Source: Hexactinellida sp. DTS-2022
Taxonomy: Eukaryota > Porifera > Hexactinellida
Length of the DNA stretch: 64,000 nucleotides
Direction of reading: 5' to 3'
Assembly (NCBI GenBank): GCA_028753945.1
Contig: JAPNXP010000011.1
Location: forward strand, 1,550,001-1,614,000
Part shown: positions 946-51,560 of the stretch, piece by piece
How positions within the stretch are numbered: position 1 is the stretch's first letter
Layout of the letters: each line of letters begins with the position of its first letter
The notes under the pieces: generated by a model
Database searches by the model: none
The model's input: the letters and a program-made list of their open reading frames with translations, nothing else
Told to the model about the DNA's origin: nothing
Made by a program: the position numbers and the translations under genes

Positions 946-954
946 AGATTTGCC

Positions 955-1464
955 ACGAGTGTGAAGTTAGCAGCGAAATCAGCAGCGAAATCCGAGCACA
1001 CTTCTGTAGCTAATAAAATGGAAACTAAGACAAATATCAATTAGTCCTTCAAGATTAATAGAGCCTACTTGTCGTACATTGGCCCAATAAATTTTCAAAA
1101 CATTTGGAGATTGGGTCACCCCATGATGAGTTTGCAAAAAAGGTAATTTTTTACGAATTTTGGCATTTAAGTTCTATACTGAGCACACTTGTCAACGTTA
1201 TACAATGCAAACCAAGTCACTTATATAGTTCTCCTTTGGCAGACTTTGAGACTAGTAGCGGTATATTTGCTCAGGAAATTTTCAAACTTATCCGAGATCT
1301 GCTTATGCCATGATGACTTTGCTGACACATGTCTGATTCCCTCTTCCAAACATACATTTTGTTTATTAATATTCTAATACTACAGAAATGTTAATTCTAA
1401 AAGTTTATAAATACTTCTTTCTAAAACTAAACTGTGTTCTATTCTATTCTACTGTTGCTCCATT
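955..1464 (+). repeat. Left long terminal inverted repeat of the MULE
   Basis: 510 bp that match the reverse complement of 5487-6180. The outermost ~25 bases contain a short direct repeat of GCAGCGAAATC. The arm holds one main copy (about 1120-1320) of the ~185-bp unit that is present twice in the right arm, plus a diverged unit nearer the tip (about 1060-1130). Confidence 0.85.
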
Positions 1465-1529
1465 TAAAAACGCGGTCATCATGTTTCATATTGACAACCT
1501 TAATTAGATATCCTTTCTTTATGTGATTT

Positions 1530-2050
1530 TTATTATTTTTTATTTTTATTTCTCCGTACAGGTGCCCTGGCCATACCTGTATACATTATGGGCTGAAACT
1601 TGGCATGTAGGTGCGGAGTGACCGTCTAATTTGCACCTAGGGTTACGATTTTTGATTAACACATTTTGGACACAGTTTTGACACCTTTCAAAATTTGTCT
1701 TCCCCATAACTCAAAAAATGTTTACTAAACCCCCAACTTTTATTGCACCATTGGATTCACCATAAAATTCTGCGTCTGATGGGAGAAGACAAATTTTCAC
1801 AATGGATTTAATTCATGCCACAAATGGAGGTTGAAATTTCTTTGTTTACTCACACTTCAGTTCAATTGAAAGTGTTAAATATAATTTTATTGTTTCAACT
1901 TGTAATAAGTATATTGATATAACTTGTTAAATCTTACTCTATTGATTCAACTTGCGATAATTATATTGATTCACTTGTGAATTCGAGCTGGCTTCTATTC
2001 AATCGCAGAAATACTATTCAATAGATTGAAACAAATTAATTATTCTGTCT
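1530..2050. repeat. Dispersed repeat inside the MULE left half
   Basis: Positions 1555-1700 (from GTGCCCTGGCC through ACACCTTTCAAA) recur at about 51408-51542 with scattered changes. Positions 1885-1985 contain alternating TTGTTTCAACTTGTAATAA-like units that recur, reverse-complemented, at about 46280-46380. The arrangement suggests an older repeat inserted between the left terminus and the coding region, because no equivalent sequence lies between the stop codon and the right terminus. Confidence 0.55.
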
Positions 2051-2396
2051 AGTCATATGTATATTGTGACACTAAGTTATTCGATTGTCCTAATTTAGAT
2101 TAGGCCCTTCATAATTTTTTCACAAATTTGCATCTTGAGTGTTGCATCTCGAATTATTTATAAGACCAGAATTATGTAATCAATAAAGTGCTTCTGTGAT
2201 ATTTGTTGTTTAATTTATAATTGCGTCCCTTTGCCCGAGATCATGGGCGGAGATTTTTCTGAGAAATTCGAGCAGGAAATCTCAAGATTGGATTTACCAT
2301 GGTCTGAAATCCGACCCAAACTCAGTTATTATAATTGACGCGATTCTTTCTCAATTTGGGGTATGTAAAATAATATTTAATAGGAATCGAACAACT

Positions 2397-3133
2397 ATGA
2401 GGAAAAAGCTAATGCATTTTTGGCATAACAACAATTGTAATATTCAGGACAAAGTAAATGCGAAGTACGATTCTATGGATTTAGATCAGGATAAAATTCA
2501 ATTAATTGTTAGTTTTGACCGATCAAACTTGGGTAGTATTTTTCTTTCGACAATCCAACAATCAAATGACTCAATTCTGATCTCTACAAGTCCACAAAAT
2601 AGTCCTCCATCACCGGTTATTAATGAAAAAGGATCTGGTATCATTGAAGCTGATGATAATTTATTTTCTTTCAATTCTGAAACTCAACAACCTAACCGAT
2701 TTATACTCACTCCTCAAGAATGGATATCTATTAAGCCAAAAATTGGATGCAACAAATTACTTTCAAATTGGACCTATATTTTCAACCAGAAGCTCAGCGT
2801 TTTTCCCCCTATTGTGTAATGAAATTTATATACCACAGAATTAATGTGAATTCGAGTTTTCGCGAATGTCGTTTTATTGTAGCTCAAGCAGTTTGCAAAT
2901 TTGCTGAATGTGTTAAATTTTCACTTTGGATTGATGATGCGCCTCAATTTGAATTGGATTATTTGACAGTTAATTTTTTTGCAGAAGGTGTTCTTTCAAA
3001 TGAACACTTTGATAATAGAACTGCATACAGTCGAAAAATATCAGGGCAACAGCGAGAATCAATAGCGAAAATATGTCAAGCATTTCAGCTATTAATTATC
3101 ATTATGACCTTTTCAAGAACTCAGATGCTTTAG
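2397..3133 (+). pseudogene. N-terminal part of the MULE transposase, in two shifted frames
   Basis: Two overlapping frames lead into the 801-aa frame: 2397-2819 (140 codons) and 2747-3133 (128 codons). The second overlaps the main frame by about 60 bases. Each step is a shift in the same direction, as if one base had been lost at each overlap. The second block has FIVAQAVCKFAE and a run of acidic/aromatic residues, compatible with the DNA-binding N-terminus of a NOF-like protein, but no zinc finger could be identified with certainty. Alternatives are programmed frameshifting or consensus sequencing errors. No slippery heptamer in the right phase was found. Confidence 0.6.
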
Positions 3134-5478
3134 AAACTGCCAAGCACGGAAATATGAACCAGTTGCATTCAACGCATGTGCTACGAAAAATTAAGTCTCA
3201 ACATTTTTCAAAACGTCGGTTCGATGATCATATGTGGGAGGGTATTATTATTACAAAGAAAACATATGAAAGTGCAATAAAAGGGAAAGTTATTGATGGG
3301 TACCTACAAAAGATATCAAGATATCCTATTGTCATACACATGTATAGTGAGGAACAATTACTTATCTTAAAGTCAATTGACAAGACTAAATTATCTCTAC
3401 ATTTGGATGCAACAGGTTCTGTAGTTAGAAAGATAGATAGAGACCAAAAAAATTTTCTATACTATGCTCTAACATTAAAGCACCCAATAATGAAAATAAG
3501 CCCTATACCCCTTGCTGAGATGCTGAGTAGCAGCCATACTAATGTAGAAATTACACACTTTTTACACAAATGGAGCTATGATGTGAAGTTGGTATTGAAC
3601 CATGAAATCTGCCCCGCTCACATCGAAGTGGATTTTAGTTGGGTAATGCTGCATAGTATCTGCAGGATTTTTAATAAAGAACAACTTGAAGATTATCTTG
3701 ATGCTTGTTGGGATTTTATTCACAATTCACCACAGAAATTTGAGAAAATTAGAAGTGTACTACATATATGCTCAGCTCATTTGATGCACCTCATCAGCTA
3801 TAAACTAGAACGTAATATGAGAACTAGTAAATTTGTCAAAAGATGCATTATGTTTGTAATGGCTAGGCTAGTATCGTCAACAAAATTTGAAAAATTTGAA
3901 CAACTTTTCATTGCTCTATGTATGCTGTGTTTGTCGAGAAGAAAATTTCCAGAAATCAACCTTCATGTGAATACAATTGAAAATGCACTGAGATTTCGAG
4001 AGGAAGAAGTTACTAATGAATTTGATTATTTAGATGAAATAGATGAAGAACTTCCCAATGACTTTGGAGATGGTAAAAGTTACAAAGATAGATCTCCATT
4101 TGGTAGATATTTTGATACTCTACTAAGAAAATGTCAAGAACGAATTAATGAATTAGAAATTAGATATAAGACCACATATTTTGAGGAAAACAAGAACTAT
4201 TATCTACCACCGTTACCTGAATTTTTAGTCATACATTATATGCCAATATGTCCTATTTGGATGTGTAGTCTGATTTTAGGTCCAGTTATGTCACCAGGTG
4301 AAATCAATGTAAGGCATAGTAATGCAATCGTAGAAAATTGGATGAGAATTCTTAAATCGAATATTCTTAACAACGAGAATAAACTTAGACCAGGTGATTT
4401 CTTAAGAAAATTGCGAGGAGGTCTAGAAGGGACAATAAATGCTTTCAAATTTGGATTTGAGCCTATAGGTGACAAAGTTTCTAAGAGAACAAAGGATTTT
4501 TCTACATTTCAAGATACGTACTACATTAGTAGAAAAGATCTGGCAAAAGCGAAGGAAAAAGAGAGTACATATTTTGATAAAAGTATCCCCAAAAACATTA
4601 GCTTGAATTTTCTACACAAATCCGAAGGTGTTAAAACTATCAGTGACAAGAGAAACTATAAACAGACTTCTGAATGTAAAAAAACTCATCCAAATTCTAA
4701 AATTAAGAACAAGCCTAATAGCAAAAAAATGTTTAAGGACAATGTAGCAACAAAAAATAGAATGAGCAAGTCCCTTATACCAGATTTTAGTGCAGAAATA
4801 TCAAGCGATGACAGTGTTGTGATAAATGATAATCCTCAAGGTGTTAGATTATATAATCATGGTCAATTTTGTCCAGTAGATCAAATTTGGCAAAGGGAGA
4901 AATGCAAGACTTTGAAACTATCTTATGTCAGTGGAATATTATATACTAATGAATCAAAAGACAGAAGTTTGGAAATCCGAGAGCTAAGGCCTTCTAAAGA
5001 AAAGAGAATTTCTCCTGATGGAAACTGTCTCTTTAGCTCACTCTCTTATATAATCACTGGTAGCGATCATTTTCACAAAGAAGTTAGGGAACTGTTAGTA
5101 GAGAATATGAAAGGTGCTTACCGAGAAATATGCAGTGGTTACTGTCACAGTAAAATAGATTTACTATTAGAAGTCCATTGCCATTCAATTGAACAATACA
5201 TAAATGCAAGTATGATTGATCGAATGGGATCGTGGGGTACAGATATGGAACTGTTTTTGGCCGCACAAATATTAAAAACAGACATATTTGTTTATCAAGA
5301 GGCTTATCACTGCTGGAATAAATTTTCTGGTTATGGATTCATAGATAAACGCGATTCACATAAATTGACGGGAAAAAGAATATATATTCGACTATTTATG
5401 AACCATTTCCAACCTATTATCAAAGTGAATTCAAAGGATGAAGTACAATGCGAATCCGAAACCATTCCGAGACTTTAG
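3073..5478 (+). CDS. MULE-type transposase fused to a C-terminal OTU cysteine protease domain
   Basis: 801 uninterrupted codons. The catalytic triad of a MULE transposase can be placed at D112 (HLDATGSVV), D187 (IEVDFSWVML) and E421 (NAIVENWMRILK), with the family's Cys/His stretch (ICSAHLMHLI) between the second D and the E. About residues 500-580 are Lys/Ser-rich linker. An OTU-type deubiquitinase-like domain follows: D649 and C652 in SPDGNCLFSSL, W721 in GSWGTDMELFLAAQIL, and H778 in MNHFQPI. This gives the full Cys/His pair at normal spacing. It would cut and reinsert the element through the ACGAGTGTG termini. The OTU domain could strip ubiquitin from the transposase or a host factor, but that is inference. 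The start at 3073 is the first Met in this frame; the natural N-terminus probably lies upstream in the shifted frames. The stop is only 9 bases from the right terminus. Confidence 0.85.
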   Translation: MSSISAINYHYDLFKNSDALETAKHGNMNQLHSTHVLRKIKSQHFSKRRFDDHMWEGIIITKKTYESAIKGKVIDGYLQKISRYPIVIHMYSEEQLLILKSIDKTKLSLHLDATGSVVRKIDRDQKNFLYYALTLKHPIMKISPIPLAEMLSSSHTNVEITHFLHKWSYDVKLVLNHEICPAHIEVDFSWVMLHSICRIFNKEQLEDYLDACWDFIHNSPQKFEKIRSVLHICSAHLMHLISYKLERNMRTSKFVKRCIMFVMARLVSSTKFEKFEQLFIALCMLCLSRRKFPEINLHVNTIENALRFREEEVTNEFDYLDEIDEELPNDFGDGKSYKDRSPFGRYFDTLLRKCQERINELEIRYKTTYFEENKNYYLPPLPEFLVIHYMPICPIWMCSLILGPVMSPGEINVRHSNAIVENWMRILKSNILNNENKLRPGDFLRKLRGGLEGTINAFKFGFEPIGDKVSKRTKDFSTFQDTYYISRKDLAKAKEKESTYFDKSIPKNISLNFLHKSEGVKTISDKRNYKQTSECKKTHPNSKIKNKPNSKKMFKDNVATKNRMSKSLIPDFSAEISSDDSVVINDNPQGVRLYNHGQFCPVDQIWQREKCKTLKLSYVSGILYTNESKDRSLEIRELRPSKEKRISPDGNCLFSSLSYIITGSDHFHKEVRELLVENMKGAYREICSGYCHSKIDLLLEVHCHSIEQYINASMIDRMGSWGTDMELFLAAQILKTDIFVYQEAYHCWNKFSGYGFIDKRDSHKLTGKRIYIRLFMNHFQPIIKVNSKDEVQCESETIPRL

Positions 5479-5486
5479 ATTAGAGA

Positions 5487-6180
5487 ATGGAGCAACAGTA
5501 GAATAGAATAGAACACAGTTTAGTTTTAGAAAGAAGTATATTAGAAACTTTTAGAATTAGCATTTCTGTAGTATTAGAATATTAATAAACAAAATGTATG
5601 TTTGGAAGAGGGAATCAGACATGTGTCAGCAAAGTCATCATGGCATCAGCAGATCTCGGATAAGATTGAAAATTTCCTGAGCAAATATACCGCTACTAGT
5701 CTCAAAGTCTGCCAAAGGAGAACTATATAAGTGACTTGGTTTGCATTGTATAACGTTGAAAAGTGTGCTCAGTATATAACTTAAATGCCAAAATTTATGA
5801 ATATATACATTTTATGCATAGTCATCATGGCATAAGCAGATCTCGGATAAGTTTGAAAATTTCCTGAGCTAATATACCGCTACTAGTCTCAAAGTCTGCC
5901 AAAGGAGAACTATATATTGACTTGGTTTGCATTGTATAACGTTAACAATTGTGCTCAGTATAGAACTTAAATGCCAAAATTCGTAAAAATTACCTTTTTG
6001 CAAACTCATCATGGGGTGACCCAATCTCCAAATGTTTTGAAAATTTATTGAGCCAATGTACCACAAGTAGGCTCTATTAATCTTGATGGACTAATTGATA
6101 TTTGTCTTAGTTTCCATTTTATTAACTACAGAAGTGTGCTCGGATTTCGCTGCTGATTTCGCTGCTAACTTCACACTCGT
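5487..6180 (+). repeat. Right long terminal inverted repeat of the MULE, with tandem units
   Basis: 694 bp, longer than the left arm because a ~185-bp unit is tandemly repeated. Unit 1 (about 5632-5818) and unit 2 (about 5819-5998) both begin near GTCATCATGGCAT. A diverged third unit (about 6004-6085) begins CTCATCATGGGGT. The outer tip ends GCTGCTAACTTCACACTCGT. Tandem units inside inverted termini are a foldback-element trait. Confidence 0.85.
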
Positions 6181-6975
6181 AGACTTGCCATACATGTAAG
6201 ATGACAGCGGCCTTGCCACCACAACCGCAAAATAAGCTCCAACCAATCCCACTCCCGTATAGAACGTGGAAACATATAGGGATGAACTTTATATGTGATT
6301 TCTCTGAGAGCAAAGATGGATAAAACACTTTTGTCAATGTTTGTTATCTGAGCAAATACGTTGCAGTGCGCGATCTCATGTCGAAGACATCAGAAGAAGT
6401 AATCAAGAATCTTAAAGATATCCGCCTCGATATGGGATCACCCGATATTGTTCAGCACGACCAAGGAACGGAGTTACAAGTATTGTGAGTTGCATTATCA
6501 TTTTTCTACATTCTGATCAAATATTTTCAGTGACATATTGCTAAATAGTTATTTTTAATAATATTAGTAAGTATTCGATATAATCTTGCTTATATTATTC
6601 ATAGATATTTGAGGAATTTCACCGGAAATTAGGAGTTGAAAATCGTAGCACTCGTGCATACTACCCGATGGCTAACGGTCTAGTCGAAGCACATAATAAT
6701 ATTCTCAAAAGGTATGGTTATTAGTTAACTAGTAAATGATAACAACATTTCGAATGCATGATTTAGGATAATATACCAACTATGAATGTTCTTTTTTAGT
6801 CAACTGAACAAAATGGAGATCCAGACTGGGAATCATTGGACAAATCTGCTAAAAGCTGCTGCAATAACAATGAACTCGACCTTTAAAAGGTCCCATGGAC
6901 AAACTCCATTCAAGGTTATGTGGGGAAGAGAGGCATCAAGATCTTCAGTCGACCATTATCAACCTGCAGTGCAAC

Positions 6976-9351: not shown

Positions 9352-12300
9352 ATAGCAATCTATTTCCTAAGGCAATGGCACTCTAGTTAATTACTGGACC
9401 ATGGATGGCAAATACCATGGGATTATTCTATACAATAACTTTAAATTTAAAGATGATTTGAGTATTTATGGTGAATTCACCTACTTTATGCCCCTTAGAA
9501 CTTATTTTTGGAATAACTGCGAGAATATAAACTTGATTTTCAGGGATATTCACTATATTAATCTAGCGGTAACAATTGTTTGAATTCATCCCTACAGAAC
9601 GATTAAAATTCGTTTAGATCATATTCACGTTCAAGAAATACAAGTACTGAATGATTATAGAAGTTATACACTTGAGTAGCTGACTAATTTCTACATTCTA
9701 CCAAATAATCGTCAGAGTAGTGAGAGTACGAATTTCACTAACGAATTTTAATAATAACCACCCATAATTATTACACTCAAAATTTTTACGATATTCAATA
9801 ATGATTTTAATTGCATTGTTACTTGCTAAACTTCATAATTTTAACTTTGCGTATTCAAATTTCAACATGACTTGCCTCGTACCTGGTTGTAAGTCAAACT
9901 ATTCTGACAAAGATGAATATGTACCTGTTTTCTCTTTCCCCACTGATGTTGAAACTCGTGAGAAGTGGTTTCGAGCAATACCTAGGCAGAGAGAAGACTA
10001 CGAGGTGAATAAACGATTGAAGGTACGTACTTTGTTATAATATGTTTACTTTTATATTGTATTCTATTTCTTTTGTTTTGAAGGTCTGCGTACACCATTT
10101 CCATGAAATAGACATAGAGAGGACCATTAAATACTTCAATGGAATGGAGATGATTGAGACGATCAGGAATAAAGTGGCTCTGAAGAAGTGTGCAGTCCCT
10201 AGCATCTTTCCAAACTGTCCTAGCTATCTGACAGATGCTGCTGATAGATGTCAAAGACTATCTTTAGATGTTAAGGAGAAGAGGGTACATGAAGCCTACC
10301 AGAAGAGCCGCGCAGATTTCAAAGAAACTGAATCTAAGTTTATTCTTACTACTCTTAATTGTATTATTTCTAAGTTACATCTAATTGGACTACCTAACGG
10401 TTGGCTTCTTGATCGACCCAATTCTACAATCATTCTATTTCTTAAGATTCACTATCATAATGAAATTTCTACGGTCGAACGTTCAATAATTGTTGATGAA
10501 AAATTAGATTGTAAGGCTTTTTATAAAGAAAATAATAGAATCAAACTATCTTGTAATTCGTTCAACGATATCAGATTGTTAGAAAATATTATTCATGAAG
10601 TTGAAATGAGTCAAAAAGATTGCTCAATTTCCACAGCGAACCCCTTTGAAAAACATGTCGAGAATGCCATTCATAATCTTTCTAGTGCAATTGATACACT
10701 AGATCCTACCCATTTCACATTTGATTTCGAAACCGACCGAATGATTCTATGCAAATTCGTCTTAATCTTTTGCTCGATCAGCTGAAATACTTAATTGTTG
10801 ATAAAATGCTCGTCGTTATAATATTCTCACTCAGGTCTTTTGTCTAAAAGTTCACGGAATTTCACCAGCTTGTTATCGGCTTATCCAAAGCTCTAACTGT
10901 ATAATACTTCCACACGAACGTAATTTGTTGAAGATCAAAAATAGTATCGGCCTAGAGAGTGAGTATACTAATATTCATGAAGAAGTTGCTACCACGTTTA
11001 ATGATTTAGAGCGCCATGTGATTCTTCAAATGGATGAAGTTCACATTCGTAGTGATGCATCCTATAAGGGAGGAAGGGTAATTGGGTCGACTCATAATCC
11101 GGATGATCCACATACTACAGTTTTTTTCTATGATGGTTTCTAGTTTATCGGCCAAGTTTTCCACCATTGTGCGATTAATACCTTTGGGTTCTTCATCTGC
11201 AGAATCATTATATCCAATTGTTAAATCAACTATTTGTGACATCGAAGCTTGTGGTCTGTTTGTTGAAGCTGTGTGTACTGATAATTATCCACTCAATGTT
11301 CGTATATACAAATTCTTTTCAATTAATTCGAGACAGGAACCAAAGGTACAGCACCCATGCAATCCACAAAGAAGTTTAATTTTGTTTTTTGATTTTGTTC
11401 ATATCATTAAGTCCATTAGGAATAATTGGTTAAATCTAAAAAATTTAGACAATACATTTATTTTTCCGAAATTTGCGGAATGCAAATTTTGTGTACAACA
11501 AAATATCAGTAACTTAAACAAACTTTTTACGTCTCCATTTCTAGAACCAACATTTCGGCCACTCATTTTACCTCTAAATCTCTTTATTCTGAACTATGTT
11601 ATGCACCCTTTCAGGATATCCGTAATTTATTCAATTCTGATAAATGTAATGTCTTGAAGCGAGCACCAAGATTAACAGCGAAAGCGTGGCCCTCAAGGTT
11701 AGAACGACAAAATGTTAGTTTTGCTTTGAAAATTTTCCATGAGACAACATATGCCGGCTTATTATCGTGGAAAATGGAAAAAGACATCATACACACGAAT
11801 CAAAGAGTAGAATTCCTTGAATTAATCAATCAGGTGTGGAACCTATTCAATGTCAACTGGGTCGGAAAAGATATACGTTTTAAGGATGAATATTCAGCTC
11901 CAATTTACCCAAGAGATTTTCGTTTACAATTTTTAAACAACGTCGTCTCTTGGATGGATATTTGGAATACTCTGCCATCTTTATATGGAAAGTTAACACC
12001 ACAAACCTTTACCAGTTTCAGACACACATGCGAGGCGTTACCACTGCTGGTCAAACAACTTACCGAGAACTGCGGAAACCAGTACCTTCTAACTGCAAGA
12101 ATTCAAAATGATGCGCTGGAGCACCACTTTGGTTTATATAGACAGATGTCAGGGTCTCACTACCAGATTTCATTTAACCAAATTTTGGAAAGCGAACGCA
12201 GACTCCAACTTTCAAACATTCTAAAAGTGTTCGCTCTAAAATACGGTGCTATCTCTTGTGAAGACAATATTTCTCTTAAAGAATACCTTCATAAATTTGC

Positions 12301-12432
12301 TGACGATTTTGATAGTTGTAATGAGGAGCAACACGATATAGAACTTTATCTAACCACATTGAATGAAATTTCAGTCCCTGAAATAGAGGTTTCTCAATTG
12401 GAATGTCTCGTTTATATAGCAGGATACGCAGT
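9352..12432 (+). mobile_element. P-like (THAP) DNA transposon, copy A, 3' end missing
   Basis: Begins with the P-like terminus ATAGCAATCTATTTCCTAAG. It is colinear without a single indel with the reverse complement of 17174-20254 (3,081 bp; coordinate pairs sum to 29,606). One substitution is visible near 9413. Identity stops abruptly at 12432, inside the transposase, where unrelated sequence begins; the C-terminal ~120 codons and the 3' terminus are lost. No 3' terminus of this family was found between 12433 and 16200. Confidence 0.85.
9867..12432 (+). pseudogene. P-element-type (THAP9-like) transposase, copy A, frameshifted and truncated
   Basis: Start at the Met of MTCLVPGCKSNY, the first half of a THAP zinc finger. 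A short intron (about 10023-10084, GTACGT..TTGAAG) separates it from VCVHHF and the AVPSIFP box that close the finger. The RNase H-like region follows: first Asp in LQMDEVHIRSDAS, second in AVCTDNYPLNV, and Glu in DALEHHFGLYRQMSG. Frame breaks occur near 10750, near 10806, in a run of seven T at about 11119 and near 11580. The protein is therefore not made intact. Copy B carries the same breaks. THAP-P transposases cut and paste elements through short inverted ends; this copy also lacks its C-terminus. Confidence 0.85.
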
Positions 12433-16723: not shown

Positions 16724-19700
16724 TTACTTGTATTTTTTTAGTTTAGTGTTATCTTTATTTAAAACCATGGCATTATAATTGCGAACCCTCTTTGATAAGA
16801 TAATGTTTGACCAAGGTAAACACATTTTCTTTAATATATCCCAATTCCAAACACCACAGAAACACCAATCTTTCCAGACATCAATGTATCTCTCTTCAAT
16901 AAAGTTCATAGAGATACTGATCAACAGGCTACGGGATGGTCCAGAATAGAATTCCTTACTTAAGGATTCACAGTTATCAATTCTGAGGAAGATTTCATAT
17001 AATATGCAAACACATTTACCACATAACGAGAAGGATATTTAAGAGAGCCCCTATCCACTAAATCAATCAAAGTATATTGGGAACCAACGTCATTGTTAAC
17101 TTCCAGGAGTTTATCTGATGTTAAAAGATTATGGCAAGATAGACAGCCATTAGACTTCTTAAAGTAAGAGAAGACTGCGTATCCTGCTATATAAACGAGA
17201 CATTCCAATTGAGAAACCTCTATTTCAGGGACTGAAATTTCATTCAATGTGGTTAGATAAAGTTCTATATCGTGTTGCTCCTCATTACAACTATCAAAAT
17301 CGTCAGCAAATTTATGAAGGTATTCTTTAAGAGAAATATTGTCTTCACAAGAGATAGCACCGTATTTTAGAGCGAACACTTTTAGAATGTTTGAAAGTTG
17401 GAGTCTGCGTTCGCTTTCCAAAATTTGGTTAAATGAAATCTGGTAGTGAGACCCTGACATCTGTCTATATAAACCAAAGTGGTGCTCCAGCGCATCATTT
17501 TGAATTCTTGCAGTTAGAAGGTACTGGTTTCCGCAGTTCTCGGTAAGTTGTTTGACCAGCAGTGGTAACGCCTCGCATGTGTGTCTGAAACTGGTAAAGG
17601 TTTGTGGTGTTAACTTTCCATATAAAGATGGCAGAGTATTCCAAATATCCATCCAAGAGACGACGTTGTTTAAAAATTGTAAACGAAAATCTCTTGGGTA
17701 AATTGGAGCTGAATATTCATCCTTAAAACGTATATCTTTTCCGACCCAGTTGACATTGAATAGGTTCCACACCTGATTGATTAATTCAAGGAATTCTACT
17801 CTTTGATTCGTGTGTATGATGTCTTTTTCCATTTTCCACGATAATAAGCCGGCATATGTTGTCTCATGGAAAATTTTCAAAGCAAAACTAACATTTTGTC
17901 GTTCTAACCTTGAGGGCCACGCTTTCGCTGTTAATCTTGGTGCTCGCTTCAAGACATTACATTTATCAGAATTGAATAAATTACGGATATCCTGAAAGGG
18001 TGCATAACATAGTTCAGAATAAAGAGATTTAGAGGTAAAATGAGTGGCCGAAATGTTGGTTCTAGAAATGGAGACGTAAAAAGTTTGTTTAAGTTACTGA
18101 TATTTTGTTGTACACAAAATTTGCATTCCGCAAATTTCGGAAAAATAAATGTATTGTCTAAATTTTTTAGATTTAACCAATTATTCCTAATGGACTTAAT
18201 GATATGAACAAAATCAAAAAACAAAATTAAACTTCTTTGTGGATTGCATGGGTGCTGTACCTTTGGTTCCTGTCTCGAATTAATTGAAAAGAATTTGTAT
18301 ATACGAACATTGAGTGGATAATTATCAGTACACACAGCTTCAACAAACAGACCACAAGCTTCGATGTCACAAATAGTTGATTTAACAATTGGATATAATG
18401 ATTCTGCAGATGAAGAACCCAAAGGTATTAATCGCACAATGGTGGAAAACTTGGCCGATAAACTAGAAACCATCATAGAAAAAAACTGTAGTATGTGGAT
18501 CATCCGGATTATGAGTCGACCCAATTACCCTTCCTCCCTTATAGGATGCATCACTACGAATGTGAACTTCATCCATTTGAAGAATCACATGGCGCTCTAA
18601 ATCATTAAACGTGGTAGCAACTTCTTCATGAATATTAGTATACTCACTCTCTAGGCCGATACTATTTTTGATCTTCAACAAATTACGTTCGTGTGGAAGT
18701 ATTATACAGTTAGAGCTTTGGATAAGCCGATAACAAGCTGGTGAAATTCCGTGAACTTTTAGACAAAAGACCTGAGTGAGAATATTATAACGACGAGCAT
18801 TTTATCAACAATTAAGTATTTCAGCTGATCGAGCAAAAGATTAAGACGAATTTGCATAGAATCATTCGGTCGGTTTCGAAATCAAATGTGAAATGGGTAG
18901 GATCTAGTGTATCAATTGCACTAGAAAGATTATGAATGGCATTCTCGACATGTTTTTCAAAGGGGTTCGCTGTGGAAATTGAGCAATCTTTTTGACTCAT
19001 TTCAACTTCATGAATAATATTTTCTAACAATCTGATATCGTTGAACGAATTACAAGATAGTTTGATTCTATTATTTTCTTTATAAAAAGCCTTACAATCT
19101 AATTTTTCATCAACAATTATTGAACGTTCGACCGTAGAAATTTCATTATGATAGTGAATCTTAAGAAATAGAATGATTGTAGAATTGGGTCGATCAAGAA
19201 GCCAACCGTTAGGTAGTCCAATTAGATGTAACTTAGAAATAATACAATTAAGAGTAGTAAGAATAAACTTAGATTCAGTTTCTTTGAAATCTGCGCGGCT
19301 CTTCTGGTAGGCTTCATGTACCCTCTTCTCCTTAACATCTAAAGATAGTCTTTGACATCTATCAGCAGCATCTGTCAGATAGCTAGGACAGTTTGGAAAG
19401 ATGCTAGGGACTGCACACTTCTTCAGAGCCACTTTATTCCTGATCGTCTCAATCATCTCCATTCCATTGAAGTATTTAATGGTCCTCTCTATGTCTATTT
19501 CATGGAAATGGTGTACGCAGACCTTCAAAACAAAAGAAATAGAATACAATATAAAAGTAAACATATTATAACAAAGTACGTACCTTCAATCGTTTATTCA
19601 CCTCGTAGTCTTCTCTCTGCCTAGGTATTGCTCGAAACCACTTCTCACGAGTTTCAACATCAGTGGGGAAAGAGAAAACAGGTACATATTCATCTTTGTC

Positions 19701-19739
19701 AGAATAGTTTGACTTACAACCAGGTACGAGGCAAGTCAT
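16724..19739 (-). pseudogene. P-element-type (THAP9-like) transposase, copy B, frameshifted
   Basis: Same domain order as copy A: THAP finger (MTCLVPGCKSNY .. VCVHHF .. AVPSIFP) split by a short intron, RNase H-like D, D and E, and the E-containing DALEHHFGLYRQMSG block. It adds the C-terminus missing from A (FSYFKKSNGCLSCHNLLTSD, then NFIEERYIDVWKDWCFCGVW after one more shift near 16950). It shares the frame breaks of copy A at the mirrored positions (about 18856, 18800, 18487, 18026), so both copies are inactive in the same way. Confidence 0.85.
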
Positions 19740-20255
19740 GTTGAAATTTGAATACGCAAAGTTAAAATTATGAAGTTTAGCAAGTAACAATGCAATTAAA
19801 ATCATTATTGAATATCGTAAAAATTTTGAGTGTAATAATTATGGGTGGTTATTATTAAAATTCGTTAGTGAAATTCGTACTCTCACTACTCTGACGATTA
19901 TTTGGTAGAATGTAGAAATTAGTCAGCTACTCAAGTGTATAACTTCTATAATCATTCAGTACTTGTATTTCTTGAACGTGAATATGATCTAAACGAATTT
20001 TAATCGTTCTGTAGGGATGAATTCAAACAATTGTTACCGCTAGATTAATATAGTGAATATCCCTGAAAATCAAGTTTATATTCTCGCAGTTATTCCAAAA
20101 ATAAGTTCTAAGGGGCATAAAGTAGGTGAATTCACCATAAATACTCAAATCATCTTTAAATTTAAAGTTATTGTATAGAATAATCCCATGGTAATTGCCA
20201 TCCATGGTCCAGTAATTAACTAGAGTGCCATTGCCTTAGGAAATAGATTGCTATG

Positions 20256-25080: not shown

Positions 25081-25783
25081 AATGTCTGTTACTAATATGG
25101 ACATGAAACACGTTCCCTCTCTATTGACCGCTCAGCTGCCGAGAGAAGTACAAAATAAGATAAAAGAAAGACTAGTTTCCATTGATGACGACCTCCAGCA
25201 CGAAGATGCCCACCATCTCATTCAGCAAGTAAAATTGAACTTGTGAATGCTGGACATTACTTAACCAAAGGATATCTAAATTACGCTGCTGTATCGAAGG
25301 TCGCGGTGCTAGATTAGCCCTTATCAAACTGATAGTCCAAGAAATGAAAGTGAATCGGGATTCGAAGTTAATTATATGAGAGGACAATACGCACCACACA
25401 AAAGAAGGCAACATAAACCCAGTCAGAAATGGAAATATTCAAAGAAACGCGTTACATGCTATATATGTGGAAAATACCACTTCTGGCGTTATTGTCCTGA
25501 GAAAAGATGCGCAAAATGTGGGGGGAAAGGGCATCCAATGGGAGAGTGTAAGGAAAGCCTCACAGACTCGAAAGGACAAGTAATGGGTACCAAAATACCT
25601 TATAAGAGAGAAGAAATGTCTGTCATATTACCAATTAAACTCTCAGGAGAACCTATTTACGCCTTACTCGACAGCGGGGCAGGTCCCTTAGTTATTGACA
25701 AGAATACACTATGCCAGTTAGGCTTAGATCTATGGCTGGAACCAAAAGAAGGTAAATATTTAGTATATCGAGCGAACCAGTAA
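25081..25783 (+). pseudogene. gypsy gag nucleocapsid and start of protease
   Basis: A short gag start (25081-25245, with LPREVQNKIKERLVSIDDD) is broken and missing most of capsid. From 25376 the frame has two CCHC zinc knuckles (CYICGKYHFWRYC and CAKCGGKGHPMGEC), which package RNA, and then the protease active site ALLDSGAGPLVID. The frame stops at 25783 and protease continues in the next one. Confidence 0.8.
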
Positions 25784-25785
25784 AG

Positions 25786-27294
25786 GTGATAGGGAGTGTA
25801 AATATCATGGTAGACCTAGGATACGAACAAATATTAGAACATTCATTCAAAATTCTGACAGAGACGGAACCCACATGCATATTAGGACGTGATTTTTTAA
25901 AGAAGTTCGGAACCACCGAGTTCAATTGGACTGAGGGCCAAGTACGTTTCGGAAAAACTTGGAAAACTGCTCACATGAGAATTGAGGGAGGCGAACCTCT
26001 GTCACGTGCGAGTGTAGCAAGTCTAGACATTGTCGACCATGTCGCCTCGATAGAAGACCTACAATCCCATTATATTATAGAGAAGAGTTTATCTGATCGA
26101 ACAGTGATTGCTATTAACAGAACTTCTAAATAAATATTCTGAAGTATGTGCTACCAATCCCAAAAGACCTAACCCGGCGAATGGGACGAAACACAGAATA
26201 ATTACAGGAGACGCCCAACCCATAATGCGGCCGTATCCCATCAGTCCAGAAATAGAAAAAGAAGTCAACAGACAAATTGAAGAAATTCTCATAAATGGAA
26301 TATGCCGTCCATCAGATTCACCCTGGGCGAGTATGGGTACTGCTTATCACATACCGCGATGGATCGAAAAGATTTGTGGTAGATTATCGCTCCCTAAATA
26401 AAGTCACCCAAACAGACAGCTACCCTATGCCAAATCCCAGGAAACCATCGATCGTTTTAATGGAGACACTTATTTCAGCAAGTTAGACTGCGCCAGCGCC
26501 TACTGGGCGATTGAAATACCTTAAGAGGATCGCCATAAAACGGCTTTAGTATGTACAAGAGGTCTCTTTGAGATGAACAGGATGCCTTTCGGCCTCGTGA
26601 ACAGTCAATCCAGTTATCAAAGGCTAATGGATGCAACCCTGCGACACGTTGACCACGCAGAACCTTATATTGACGACATTTGTGTCCATTCGTCGACATT
26701 TGAGCAACACCTCGATGATTTAGAATCGACCTGCGAGCATTAGAAAAAGCGAATATTCAACTCAGAGTCGAGAAATGAAACTTTGCATTCCAAGATGCAG
26801 AGTTTATTGGGAATGTAATTTCAGAGTCTGGTCACAGTCCAACTCCGAACTTATTGGATAAAATTCGAAATGTCCAGACACCGAGAGGAAAGAAAGAGTT
26901 GCAAAGGTTCCTAGGCCTGGCTAACTTCTATTGGGACCACGTACCCGGCTACGCTCGAATCGCAGAGCCACTTTACAGACTAACTTGAAAATCACAGGTA
27001 TGGGATTGGAATGATGCAGCTGAAGACGCTTGTGGGAGGCTCAAGAGAAGTCTCATAGAAGCGCCAGTGATACTCGCGTTTCCCAACTGGCGGAATGAGT
27101 TTATCTTACAAACTGACGAGTCGTGTGTCGCAGTAGGAGCTGTGTTATCGCAATACGATAAAAACGGAGCACTTATGCCAATATATTACTTCTCCTCGGG
27201 ACTGACCCCCGCCCAGAAAAATTATTCTGCGGGAGAGCTGGAATGTTGGGAACTTGTGGCCTCAAGTAGGAATTTCAAAAGTACCTGCAAGTAG
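25786..27294 (+). pseudogene. gypsy protease C-terminus, reverse transcriptase and RNase H, broken
   Basis: Begins with the protease tail (CILGRDFLKKFG), then the RT fingers (RPYPISPEIEKEV, VVDYRSLNKVTQTDSYPMP) and palm with the YIDDICVHS polymerase motif near 26670. RT connection (LQRFLGLANFYWDHVPGYA) and the RNase H start (LQTDESCVAVGAVLSQYDK, about 27110) follow. In-frame stops near 26523, 26742, 26776 and 26986 and shifts near 26120, 26380 and 27290 disable it. RT copies the element RNA and RNase H removes the template. Confidence 0.85.
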
Positions 27295-27302
27295 CCCCGG
27301 GT

Positions 27303-29199
27303 GTGAGATTTATGTCCGATCATAATGCTCTGGTATGGCTAAAGAAGCAAAAGGATACACGTGGAAAGTTTACCCGATGGGTACAAGAACTGGAGACCCT
27401 GAACTATCAAATCGATTACATCAAAGGGGAGGATAACGTCATAGCTGACTGCCTATCGAGATTAGACTCTGAGATCGACTGGGAGATTAATGATGAAACC
27501 GAACACTTCGAGAGGCCATCTACTATTTCAATGGGGACAACTATAATGAGAGCCTTAAAAGGGTTCAGCAAGATTACCCTGCTACAAGAACATCTATGGA
27601 ACAAGCTCAGCGAAACAAGAAATATATCATGTGGTCCATTTAAGAAGTATTTCGGCATGTCCATCACAAACGGCCTACTCTGCATAGGGAGGAAGGTGGT
27701 TGTACCCCCACTCTTGAGGGAAGAAATTCTAGGTTTGGTGCACAACGAAGGACATTTTGGCATTGAGAAAACTACTCTCCTCCTCCGAGACAAATTCCAC
27801 TGGAGGGGAATGAATGATGACATCGAAATGTTCTGCAATTGTTGCCTAACTTGTCTCAAAAATAAAACTAGAACAGAGAGGTAAGAAAGGTTAGTTCCTA
27901 TCGAGTTCTATCGAGATATGTTGCGTTTTTCGACGTTGCATATCTTCCTTGGTCTTCTGACTACCACCGTTATTTTCTCATTTTAGTGGACAATTTCTCA
28001 AAATTCACGCAGTTGATCCCCATGCCAAACCAAGAAGCCGAGACAATAGCTAATTCAGTTGCAACTGGATGGATCTACAGCAGAGTGGACCATGGGTCAA
28101 CATTGGTGACCCATGACCCATCTGACCCATCGCATCTGTGACCCATGACCCATTGACCCATTGACCCATGACCCATCGAGTGACCCATTGACCCATCGAG
28201 TAACGCTTTGACCCATCGTGTTACCCATTGACCTATTTAAATATCTATTTTTAATATCTAAACATTATGTAACACAATGCAACTTACAATATATGTATTA
28301 ACCTATGTAAATCAATTACTTTTGGTAGACTTCTATGTTCCATTTCCAAAGAAATACCCTGTTTAGTTTCTGGGTTAATTTGATTCGTCTATAACTGGAC
28401 GAACATCGAAATTCCAAATGGGTCATGGGTCACAGAGCCGTGACCCATGACCCATCTGACCCATCAATTTAAGTGACCCATTTGACCCATGACCCATGAC
28501 CCATCGACCCATGGTCCACTCTGATCTACAGACACGGTCCCCCACGGATAATGATTAGCGACCAGGCACTTAATGTGGATGAGGACAAAATTAGGGACCT
28601 ACTAACAAATTGGGATAGAGAAAAGGCATCGTTCCCCCTACCATCCCCAAGGAGATGATCAAGTTGAGCGTGGAATATGAACCACAAAACAGGTCATGAG
28701 ATGCGTCCTTACTGAAAGAAACATTGAGAGGAACAGTTGGTCCACCCTCCTACCAGAAATTAACTACATTATCAATTCTGTTCGGAATTCTAGCACTAAA
28801 TACACTCCTTATAAAGTTTTCTATGGGACAGACCCCAAACTGCTGAGTACAGCGTCAGTGGACATGGAAATTCTTGTCCGTTTCAACTCGGTTCAAGAGT
28901 GGGTAGCAGATATCACGGAAACTGAAGAATTAATTAATCAAAGTGTCAATGATCATTTAGGGCACGCAAGAGAGGTAATGAAGAGAAACTATGATGTCGG
29001 GAAATCAACCAGTCAGATTGACGTCGGTGATTCTTTGCTTGTAAAGAACGAAACCAGGGACGACTGTCTGGATCCCCTGTACAAAGGTCCTTTCCCCGTC
29101 CTTAAGAAACCTGGATCCAATGTCAGAATACGGATCAGTGGAGAGAAAGAAAAGATTGTTCATCTCAACCGATGCAGATGGTATTTTAGTGGATTTTAG
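27303..29199 (+). pseudogene. gypsy RNase H tail and integrase, broken and split by a MITE
   Basis: FMSDHNALVWL and DNVIADCLSR are the RNase H end. An HHCC integrase finger follows (HNEGHFGIEK .. CNCCLTC, about 27740-27860). The core has the first Asp in VDNFSKFTQLIPMP (about 27990). After the MITE at 28081-28523 come ISDQALNVDEDKI (second Asp) and DDQVERG (Glu, about 28658), then the C-terminal fold (28696-29199, VGDSLLVKNETRDD..LYKGPFPVLKKP). Several stops and shifts are present around 27880 and 28640-28690. Confidence 0.85.
28081..28523. mobile_element. hAT-type MITE made of GACCCAT repeats, in gypsy integrase
   Basis: 443 bp. Perfect 18-bp termini CAGAGTGGACCATGGGTC and complement; exact 8-bp target duplication ATCTACAG (28073-28080 and 28524-28531). 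Both shoulders are arrays of GACCCAT units (roughly 28105-28235 and 28420-28510) around an AT-rich middle. Confidence 0.95.
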
Positions 29200-37343: not shown

Positions 37344-40300
37344 CATTGGCGTAGCAACATGGTTTTGCGATGGAGGGGCGATAGCGAGCGAGGAAAAAAT
37401 TAGGGGGTCTACCGTCTACGGTCTACCCCCAGGAAAATTTAGGTAGTATTTGCATAGAATAAGTTAGTAAAAGTAACTTGGTTTTGTCCTATCAAAATTG
37501 ATTTGGACGGACATCAAAACTGATATTTAAACCGGGAAGAACTGGTCAACACTAACTGCGTGCATGCTTACATATTAAGTAAACGTATAAACTTGTTGAG
37601 ATAACAAATTTTGATTTTGTCATAAACTATTAACATTGTTACATTGAATCAGTGATGTGATAATGAATGTTTGGTTTCAACCAATTAACAACATACATGG
37701 ATTATGCGCATCTAAGAAGGTATCATGATTCATAAATAATACGGAGCTGAGTATTCCGAATCAGAATATTATAGAAATTGAATAATATCGTACATTTTGT
37801 ATTTATTGGTTACTATCACTATTACTGTATACTAAATTCATTAGCATGTCTGTAAGCGTTCGAATCCAGACATCAACAAGGACAATAAGAGAGCGAAGGT
37901 TCAACCCTCGATTCAGTCTTTCTTCATCTCCAAAGGAAACGTACCAAATCCAGTAATTATTCAATCCGATTGGAATGATGAGTCGTCGCATGATATCGCT
38001 GGTTCAACTGATGAGCTGACGCAACCGTTGCATCCGGCTCCAGTGACACCACCACAAATGCAAGATATCCAAACAGATAATGTTGGGATTCCTCTACCTT
38101 TGATAATCACATCCGAAGAGGCGAAGACTCACAAGGACCGCGTCTTTCGCACAAAGTGGCAGCAACAACATCCATGGCTTCAGCATTCCGTAGTCAAGAA
38201 CGTGGCGTGGTGCCAGTATTGTGTATGGGCAACCATTGAGAAGTTTCTCCATTATATCAGGGAGGTGGATGCTCAGAGGACGACCTTTGCCCGCGGAGAA
38301 TGGACTAAATGGAAACAGGGAACATCTCATTTAGCAGAGCATGCTTCCAGCGCAGTCCACAATGCGGCAGCATCGATTTCATAGCACATTCGGAGAAGGC
38401 ATAACATTGCTCAGAAGGTAGACATCAAAAAGCGCCCAAGGAACGTCAGGACAATCGACTGGGGCTCAACGCGGTTCTCGACACAGTAATGTTCCTCGCT
38501 CGCCAGGGACTTGCTCTGAAAAGGTCACACAGACAATGAGTCAAACTTTCAGCAGCTTTTACAGACTCTGGGGAGGCATAACGAAAATGTCAAAAGGTTT
38601 TCCAAAACTACACGTAATTGGACGTCGCCTGATATCCAAAATGAAATGTTGAAGATGGTCCATGTAGAGATGATGGAAACTTTGCTTTCAAGGATCCGGA
38701 AGAGCGGAATATTTGCCATTATCGCTGACGAGACTACGGATGCCTCAGTAAAAGAGCAAATGAGCATAATAATTAGATACTTTGATATTGACGAGCTCGA
38801 GGTTTTCGAGATCTTCCTTGGATTCTTGAACGTTCCCGACACCAAAGCTGATACATTGTTCAACGCTATCAAGGACGTTTTGCAGCAATGCAACCTTCCT
38901 CTCGCACAAGCCAGGGGACAGTGCTATGACGGAACAGCGAACATGAGGGGACATGTGAGTGGCGTCCAGGCGCGCTTGTTGAAGGAAAATCCTTACTGCT
39001 TGTATGTATATTGTATAGGGTACAACCTCAATTTGGTGGTACAGGAAGCCACCAAGGCTCTGGTTGAGGGCAGTAAAGCAATGACTTTTCTGCAGTCGTG
39101 CACCACCTACATTCGCGATTCGCCTAAGCGCCTCCAAGAGTTTACCAACATCCTATCAGAGGTGCTTCCATCCTCTGAGACCAACTTTCGCCCCCTCTGT
39201 CATACTCGCTGGGTTATGAGGTCCGATCCCTGGACAGTTTTTTAGAGAAATATCCTGTCCTGTTGCAGTGGTACGAAGAACGACAATACAACTCCTCTCT
39301 ATCGGCAGAGATCCGTGCGAAGTCGATGTCATTTCTGCAACAGCTGGAAAGGTTCGAAACTTTATTTATGATGCGTGATATGCGCCTGCTCTTCGGCATA
39401 GTTGACCCTGTTCACAAGGCAGTGCAGGGAGTGAACGAAAAAATTGGCGATGTTATGCGAAGGGTCAATATGCTGAAAGAACACTGCAGATTGTGCGAGA
39501 TGGGCACTGCCGGACAGGTGACGCTGCAAAGCTATTTTACCAGGTGACAAAACAAAAAGCGAATGAGCTCCAGATTGATATACCTGCACTACCACGAGGC
39601 AAAATCAATAGACATAGGGGCTCTACCACTTTACTAGAAATATCAGAAGACGACATTCTACATTACTACTCCGGTCTATACGGCTCCCTTTTCGATGCTG
39701 CGATCACTGGAATCGATTCACGCTACCATACACCCAGCATGGAACTCGCTTCTGTCATTGAAATCATTTTCACAAGACGGTATACTCTGGACGATGTGGA
39801 AAAAGTGAGTTAGCTAATAGTGTTATAGCCCGATTAGCGGTGTTTGACACAGTTATTCCTGATTTTGATATGTCATATTTGTCAATAATCACCCAATTCA
39901 CCTAGGTGTGCGAAGTGTACGGCCTGAAAGATACAGGAGATGTTAACGACTCAATGCTGAAGTTACAGGTCGATCAATGGATTCACATTTCTAATGAACT
40001 GGAAGCTGACTGCTCGGAAAGTGGATTCCTTGAAATGCTTAAGAAGGACATGACGCGTGTCCTATTCATGAAAGAGCTGTTCAAGGTGTTACTGCTATAT
40101 GCCACTCTTCCTAGCACCTCATGCTCCGCGGAGCGGTCATTCAGCTGCCTGCCTAGAATCAAAACGTATTTGAGAACCACAATGTCACAAGAGCGCCTAA
40201 ACCACGTCGCCGGAATCCACATACACAAACAGGAGATGGACAAAATCAATAGACAAGAGTTATTGGATGAGTTTGTGTCACGAAATCAGTTTAGAAAAAA

Positions 40301-46160: not shown

Positions 46161-47050
46161 TATGTCAGTATATTAATGGTATATGAGTATTCTTGCAGAA
46201 GGAAATATATTCACATAATCTGTCGTTATTACGGTATGTAAATCTTTGTTTTCAATTTGAAAATAGAACACACAAGCAAAATTAATATAATTATCACAAG
46301 TTGAAACAATAGAGTAAGATTTAACAAGTCTAGTCACTATAATTATTACAAGTTGAAACAATGGAAATTGATTTAACAGTTTTACTTAATCTGAAGTGCG
46401 AAGAAATAGAGGAGATTGGCACCCTAATTATGGGACAAACATATGCCAAATTGAACATTTGTGATTTGCCAATAGGTGTAGAATTTAATTCTCTATCCAA
46501 ATATGTGAAGTTTATCAAGTTCACGATTAATTAATTCATGTTATGAGCCATAACCAGCATAAATGGGTGTTAAAATTATTTGATCAAAAATCGTAGCCCC
46601 AGATGCAAATTATACGGTCACTCCGAACATACAAGCCAATTTTTAGCTCTTTATTTATAAATTTGTGGGCAGGGCACAGTCTACGGAGGAAAGAAAATCC
46701 AAAATTGTACCTGTGCCGTAGCACTATATTTTGGTGGTGGTTTATTGATAGTGCCTCCAAAAGAACATGCTGTCGGTACAGCTGCAATTTTTGATTTTTT
46801 CGCCATGTCATGAACGCCTCATGGTGTTTAGACTCATTTAACTAGTTGTAACGGGACAAAGGAACGATTGTTGAATTTGTAGTTTATTTCTATCTTGAAC
46901 CATCTTGAGTATAATGCCATTCATTCATTATGTATTGATAATAAATTATATTATTAGTTATTTATTTTAGCAATTTTATCCACGGTGAGTGAGTTAAATC
47001 AACAAATTCCTTATATTATATTATTTTATTTAATCCATTGTATAGTAATA
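46161..47050. other. AT-rich spacer with a short repeat
   Basis: 46280-46380 holds two direct copies of ATTATTACAAGTTGAAACAATG-like sequence, related in reverse to 1885-1985. No gene with support. Confidence 0.4.
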
Positions 47051-51239: not shown

Positions 51240-51560
51240 AGAATCACTTAAGACGAATATATTTACTGTGCCGACTATACTATAGTATAGTGGCCCAGTT
51301 CTAATCTTACTGCCTTTATTTTTATTTTTATTTTTATTACTGTTCCGACTATACTTTAGTATAGTGGCCCTGTATTGAAATGACTTTTTTTATTTTTTTT
51401 ATCCGTATACGGTGCCCTGGCCAGAGCTCTATAGTTGATGGGCTGAAACTTAGAATGTAGGTGCGATGGGACCGTCTAATTTACACCTGGGGTTACGATT
51501 TTTGATTAAGAAATCTGTGACACGTCTTTAACACCTTTCAAATTGCAATTTGGGATTTCT
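51240..51560. repeat. Repeats in the 3' part of the fourth P-like copy
   Basis: CCGACTATACTATAGTATAGTGGCCC occurs twice (51272 and 51347), separated by TTTTTA runs. 51408-51542 is the repeat shared with 1555-1700. Confidence 0.6.

Follow-up and report, generated by a model that had tools for sequence, protein, structure and literature searches.

Foldback transposons of the Mutator-like element (MULE) type include Phantom and FB-NOF, and the MULEs that bear an Ulp1 protease are of the Kaonashi/CUMULE type. Foldback MULE-type elements with 9-bp target-site duplications have been described (PMC3169594; this and the other papers are cited here for parts of their text). Among them are Tm1 of Meloidogyne, which encodes a Phantom-like MULE transposase of 496 residues with FLYWCH and MULE domains, and Tetris, which has no transposase (PMC3169594, PMC4079207). 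Ginger1 transposases carry a C-terminal OTU or Ulp1 domain and some Mutator elements carry Ulp1 (PMC2836005), while an OTU domain is found in some Helitrons (PMC9741609, PMC6431247). VTD domains have been shown to be active, and transposon OTU domains are stated not yet to have been tested for activity (PMC9741609). Here we describe an element from Hexactinellida sp. DTS-2022 (assembly GCA_028753945.1, contig JAPNXP010000011.1, positions 1,550,001 to 1,614,000; this whole stretch of 64,000 nucleotides is referred to as the window) in which a single frame includes a DDE-type transposase core followed by an OTU domain.

We propose that this is a defective copy from a large group of cut-and-paste transposons, foldback-type and MULE-like, in which the OTU domain would protect the transposase-DNA complex, a reading to which we assign a probability of about 0.6. 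The transposase of the group is predicted to be one polypeptide that has a Cys/His-rich segment, probably DNA-binding, at its N terminus and an OTU domain at its C terminus, with a DDE core and then a variable linker between them.

The open frame and its two domains

The main features of the window copy are as follows.

946..954, no strand: left target-site duplication, AGATTTGCC, an 8/9 match to the right flank
955-6180: transposon copy of 5,226 bp, with one frame carrying a DDE-type core and then an OTU domain
955..1464, + strand: left terminal inverted repeat, starting ACGAGTGTGAAG and containing ~186-bp subrepeats; also present at other sites of the genome
3073..5478, + strand: open frame of 801 residues, whose first methionine (M1) is internal compared with relatives
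3325..4452, + strand: DDE-type transposase core, residues 85-460, with D112, D187, C233-x2-H236 and E421
4960..5448, + strand: OTU domain, residues 630-792, with D649/C652, W721 and H778
about 5486..6180, - strand: right terminal inverted repeat with ~186-bp subrepeats, one unit more than in the left arm
6181..6189, no strand: right target-site duplication, AGACTTGCC, an 8/9 match to the left flank

A preliminary description of the element had proposed an 801-codon frame joining a MULE DDE core to an OTU-type core within foldback termini. The frame is indeed present, with a chance probability of about 3e-30 calculated from base composition, and D112, D187, E421, D649, C652, W721 and H778 all lie where they had been placed. 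The OTU assignment was confirmed by a Pfam match (3.5e-9) and by profile matches to solved OTU domains. A structure model of low confidence (mean predicted local distance difference test score, pLDDT, 46) agrees with an OTU fold, and its listed structural-alignment rows fall on the OTU end of the protein, but the order of strands and helices near D112, D187 and E421 is only a loose fit to an RNase-H-like layout. We infer that the C-terminal domain is an OTU-type cysteine protease and a putative deubiquitinase. Apart from OTU, the only Pfam match of the window protein was to LMF1, below its cut-off, and a search for Protein Data Bank (PDB) relatives of the DDE core returned two matches at E near 1, which are not credible. 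The element had also been called the only one in the window with an uninterrupted catalytic frame; the window holds no further copy of its coding region, a check which covers this family alone.

Relatives in the genome and maintenance of the fusion

The genome (112.4 Mb in 18 contigs) was searched with the 801-residue protein. This gave 64 matches, 25 of which are free of stop codons across at least 773 of the 801 residues. The copies comprise a close set with 62-97% identity, mostly broken, a second set with about 49-62%, and several families with 34-36%. In stop-free members of these last families the open frame spans 876 to 1,349 codons, and some of these members occur in near-identical copies, because of which some families look recently active. 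Eight relatives were scanned for protein length from the first methionine; seven have 1,023-1,311 residues and one has 810. No relatives were found in collections of viral and prokaryotic contigs, whose contents make that result little informative.

Eighteen of the 25 stop-free copies were aligned (copies with stops or of partial length were excluded, and the other seven stop-free copies were not fetched). D112, D187, C233, H236, E421, D649, C652, W721, D724 and H778 are invariant in all 18; this includes C652 and H778, whose loss would have spoken against the original OTU assignment. The catalytic D, C and H of the OTU domain are thus kept in every row, one of which reads DRNC instead of DGNC. 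Between the DDE core and the OTU domain lies a poorly conserved linker (window residues ~475-630).

The same DDE-OTU fusion in a single frame is found in seven or more diverged families, whose trees agree, so that the arrangement first noticed in the window recurs in intact, full-length elements of the same genome and its C-terminal part is not a separate gene inserted into one copy. The core tree and the OTU tree (12 rows each) recover the same three groups, group B being weak (62/56) in the latter. In a tree of 16 OTU domains from the genome, those of the family group together (88/89, below the level that the tool marks with a star); L045, which joins them, is by its position part of a broken family copy.

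The ratio of nonsynonymous to synonymous substitution rates (dN/dS) was estimated for pairs of copies. For L023/L026 it is 0.13 (0.06-0.23) in the OTU domain, 0.21 in the core, 0.27 in the linker and 0.34 in the N-terminal part. L024/L027 give the same picture, from the same two families and hence not independently, and L029/L030 give 0.02 for the OTU domain and 0.23 for the core. Two further pairs are uninformative (L022/L028, 0.89, interval 0.14-4.68; L023/L031, 0.26, interval 0-0.79). Since the core and OTU trees agree and the OTU ratio for L023/L026 (0.13) is below that of the core (0.21), the fusion looks old and maintained by selection. That many intact relatives retain both halves suggests that the transposon needs the second, OTU half.

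Termini and target-site duplications

The window element has the long inverted repeats with internal tandem repeats that define foldback-type transposons, as had been proposed for it. Its outer 196 nt are 96% complementary and its inner 54 nt 100%, and, the extra right ~186-bp subrepeat and some minor differences apart, the arms are nearly identical. The relatives L021, L022, L029, L030, L032 and L036 have inverted repeats of 0.6-1.1 kb. Elements of the 49-62% set, such as those near L006 and L007, share the outermost ~50 bp of the window element's terminal repeat (window 955-1004). When families with ~50% identical proteins are compared (L057-L062 against window 955-1004), nothing else of the repeat is shared; this outer portion may mark the end recognized by the transposase.

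The 9-bp target-site duplication of the preliminary description holds for the relatives but only imperfectly for the window copy itself (8/9). Perfect 9-bp duplications flank eight of ten copies for which both ends were read, including C10, whose left end is shortened; in the other two, C13 has about 7/8 and C1:7431501, which sits between inverted flanks, has no duplication. In a survey of 18 loci by eye, in which the ends of ten loci were unresolved, five (L021, L025, L029, L030 and L036) have perfect 9-bp duplications, L024 and L032 have 8 bp and L038 only 6 bp. The sibling copy at C1:7431501 (L063/L064, G000:C1:7431451-7436484) seems, from its inverted flanks, to sit inside a larger palindrome.

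The broken N-terminal region

The following features lie upstream of the 801-codon frame.

2224..3070, + strand: broken N-terminal coding region, including the Cys/His-rich segment CRFIVAQAVCKFAEC, located by tblastn with sibling L021 (and, over its later portion, L005 and L006), a codon-usage scan and open reading frames
2224-2250, 2258-2365, 2361-2810 and 2741-3070, + strand: frame pieces with homology to L021, in frames 1, 2, 3 and 2

The region upstream of the window M1 reads in frame in relatives. Counted from their own first methionine, the nine relatives of alignment A1 begin about 250-520 residues before M1, except for L010, which begins about 50 before it; in most rows this extension includes a C-x8-C-x4-C...H segment. 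In the window, homology to L021 passes through frames 1, 2, 3, 2 and 1 between about 2224 and 3073, and codon usage moves from frame 3 to 2 to 1 across about 2400-3075. Since both change frame upstream of 3073, the 801-codon frame lacks the N-terminal part, and the window copy is, as its sequence reads, a defective, frame-broken relic without an intact N-terminal part. The "uninterrupted catalytic frame" claimed for it is therefore open throughout but is not the whole gene. The close copies retrieved, several of them only in part, include no uninterrupted one of the window's own subfamily. L021 itself has inserted sequence within its coding part.

Short introns are not favoured as the source of the frame changes, because in the siblings L021, L019 and L014 a single frame stays open across some or all of the region. 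An acceptor-like site was seen, and no donor fitting the single pattern used was found.

Function of the OTU domain and superfamily placement

In the mechanism that we propose, the N-terminal Cys/His segment would bind the terminal repeats and the DDE core would excise and integrate the element. The OTU domain would remove ubiquitin from the transposase and its DNA-bound neighbours, allowing the transposase-DNA complex to survive host clearance long enough for transposition. Protection of this complex is our first choice, and its close rival is that the OTU domain acts on host repair or chromatin factors at the DNA break, aiding repair or checkpoint passage after excision. A role of this kind was proposed for the OTU and Ulp1 domains of Ginger1 by the authors who described them (PMC2836005) and selection on the OTU domain fits it equally well; the present evidence does not separate the two, since the fusion would localise the domain to the complex in either case. 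We regard the repair role as the less probable of the two, although a serious contender. More ambitiously, the group could be an old, still spreading foldback MULE-like branch in which the deubiquitinase is obligatory in the transposase and ubiquitin removal is a built-in step of transposition, an extension that we put forward tentatively, at somewhat less than even odds.

Target duplications of MULE/Mutator elements are 8-11 bp long and a C/D-x2-H motif lies between their second D and the E. The label MULE-like rests on the 9-bp duplications of the relatives, which fall within this range, on the foldback termini, on the motif layout, with C233-x2-H236 between D187 and E421 in all 18 aligned copies, and on a weak profile match. 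The core might instead belong to a transposase of another DDE superfamily with 8-9-bp duplications rather than to MULEs sensu stricto. Indeed, Pfam MULE (PF10551) matches neither the window protein nor eight relatives, nor the DDE core at E up to 10, while it matches at least 150 places in the genome and four of four control MULE frames taken from it. Comparison by hhalign of the core profile with the four controls gave a probability of only 11% (E 0.0027). Against this, the hhalign score was equalled by only 1 of 644 column shuffles, the reversed core scored 13.8 compared with 31.5, and D112 and D187 align with both MULE Asp residues, E421 lying outside the aligned stretch; as a negative control, the OTU profile gave E 0.36 against the same MULEs. 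Together with the duplication length, the termini and the C-x2-H between the second D and the E, this makes a different superfamily unlikely. The MULE DDE core of the preliminary description is thus supported only in part, by duplication length, motif layout and a weak profile match, and is not confirmed by Pfam.

One feature weighs against an active OTU protease. An Asp or Asn is usual two residues after the OTU His; at this position 4 of the 18 rows have Q and the other 14 have E, compared with N in two other transposon-type OTU domains of the genome, L046 and L043. The domain could therefore be a catalytically weak or dead module that binds ubiquitin or dimerises. The Cys, the His, the Asp of DGNC, W721 and D724 are, however, invariant over 32-51% identity, as is typical of a retained active site, and we consider loss of activity rather improbable. 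Self-processing, in which the OTU domain would cut the transposase at the variable linker, would suit the poorly conserved stretch that separates both parts, but OTU cleavage of non-ubiquitin bonds is unusual and this reading is very improbable. That the OTU domain is a separate host gene or an in-frame insertion can be dismissed, given that seven or more diverged families with concordant trees have the same fusion.

Other features of the window and the genome

One further feature lies within the element.

1535..1971, no strand: interspersed repeat, nested after the left terminal inverted repeat and before the gene, and no part of the transposon's own machinery

It is related to window 46280-46705 and 51386-51542, and a relative lies inside sibling L021 (5310-5822). 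Elsewhere, 9352-12432 and 17174-20254 form a perfect (100%) inverted pair with arms of 3,081 nt, 4,741 nt apart, each arm carrying the same long frames; we take these to be reminiscent of P-element/THAP9-type transposases, and Pfam had no match for the two frames tested. Retrotransposon pieces together with a DUF4371 fragment, presumably hAT-type, occur at 25313-27881 and 38520-39242; among them an H2C2 integrase is above the Pfam cut-off, and an aspartyl protease and an RNase H are below it.

OTU domains are abundant in the genome (at least 150 places). L071 is an OTU frame of 227 residues, a length that recurs often among the OTU matches listed, and L041, L043 and L044 are further OTU loci. 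L046 is presumably a GPY/F plus OTU frame (GPY/F by eye), separate from the window family; L042 is what we take to be a PHD-like OTU frame, and L039 is probably the host OTUD5 gene.

Comparison with known systems

Foldback MULE-type elements share with the window element long composite inverted repeats, internal tandem repeats and 8-10-bp duplications (PMC3169594, PMC4079207). In contrast to Tm1, the protein described here is far longer, has no Pfam MULE match and carries an OTU domain; the cited part of PMC3169594 mentions neither an OTU domain nor a protease. Like the present group, Ginger1 has an OTU (or Ulp1) protease at the C terminus of its transposase, but it differs in its Gypsy-integrase-like core with GPY/F and in its CCGG/CCGT duplications (PMC2836005). 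Here the 9-bp duplications lack CCGG/CCGT, and no integrase Pfam match was found in the window protein or eight relatives. MULEs with Ulp1 likewise join a protease for a ubiquitin-like protein to a Mutator-type element, but the protease is of another family (Ulp1/SUMO), and foldback termini are not described for them in the cited part of PMC2836005. Helitrons and Helentrons with OTU or VTD also encode a deubiquitinase domain, joined to a rolling-circle RepHel protein instead of a DDE transposase (PMC9741609).

Several times, then, unrelated transposon proteins have acquired a protease that belongs to the ubiquitin or SUMO system (Ginger1, Helentrons, MULE-Ulp1), and the role of these proteases in transposition is open. 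In the present genome, that of OTU could be studied in a single-protein system of which nearly identical, stop-free copies exist. In the most informative pairs the OTU domain is at least as constrained as the DDE core; with stop-free copies at hand, a change of its active site would therefore be directly testable in an excision assay. The literature searched, which did not extend to some older papers possibly bearing on MULE-OTU fusions, yielded no case of a foldback MULE-like transposase with an OTU domain. Proteases on transposon proteins and foldback MULEs are each already known; what is new, within that literature, is the union of an OTU domain with a foldback MULE-like transposase.

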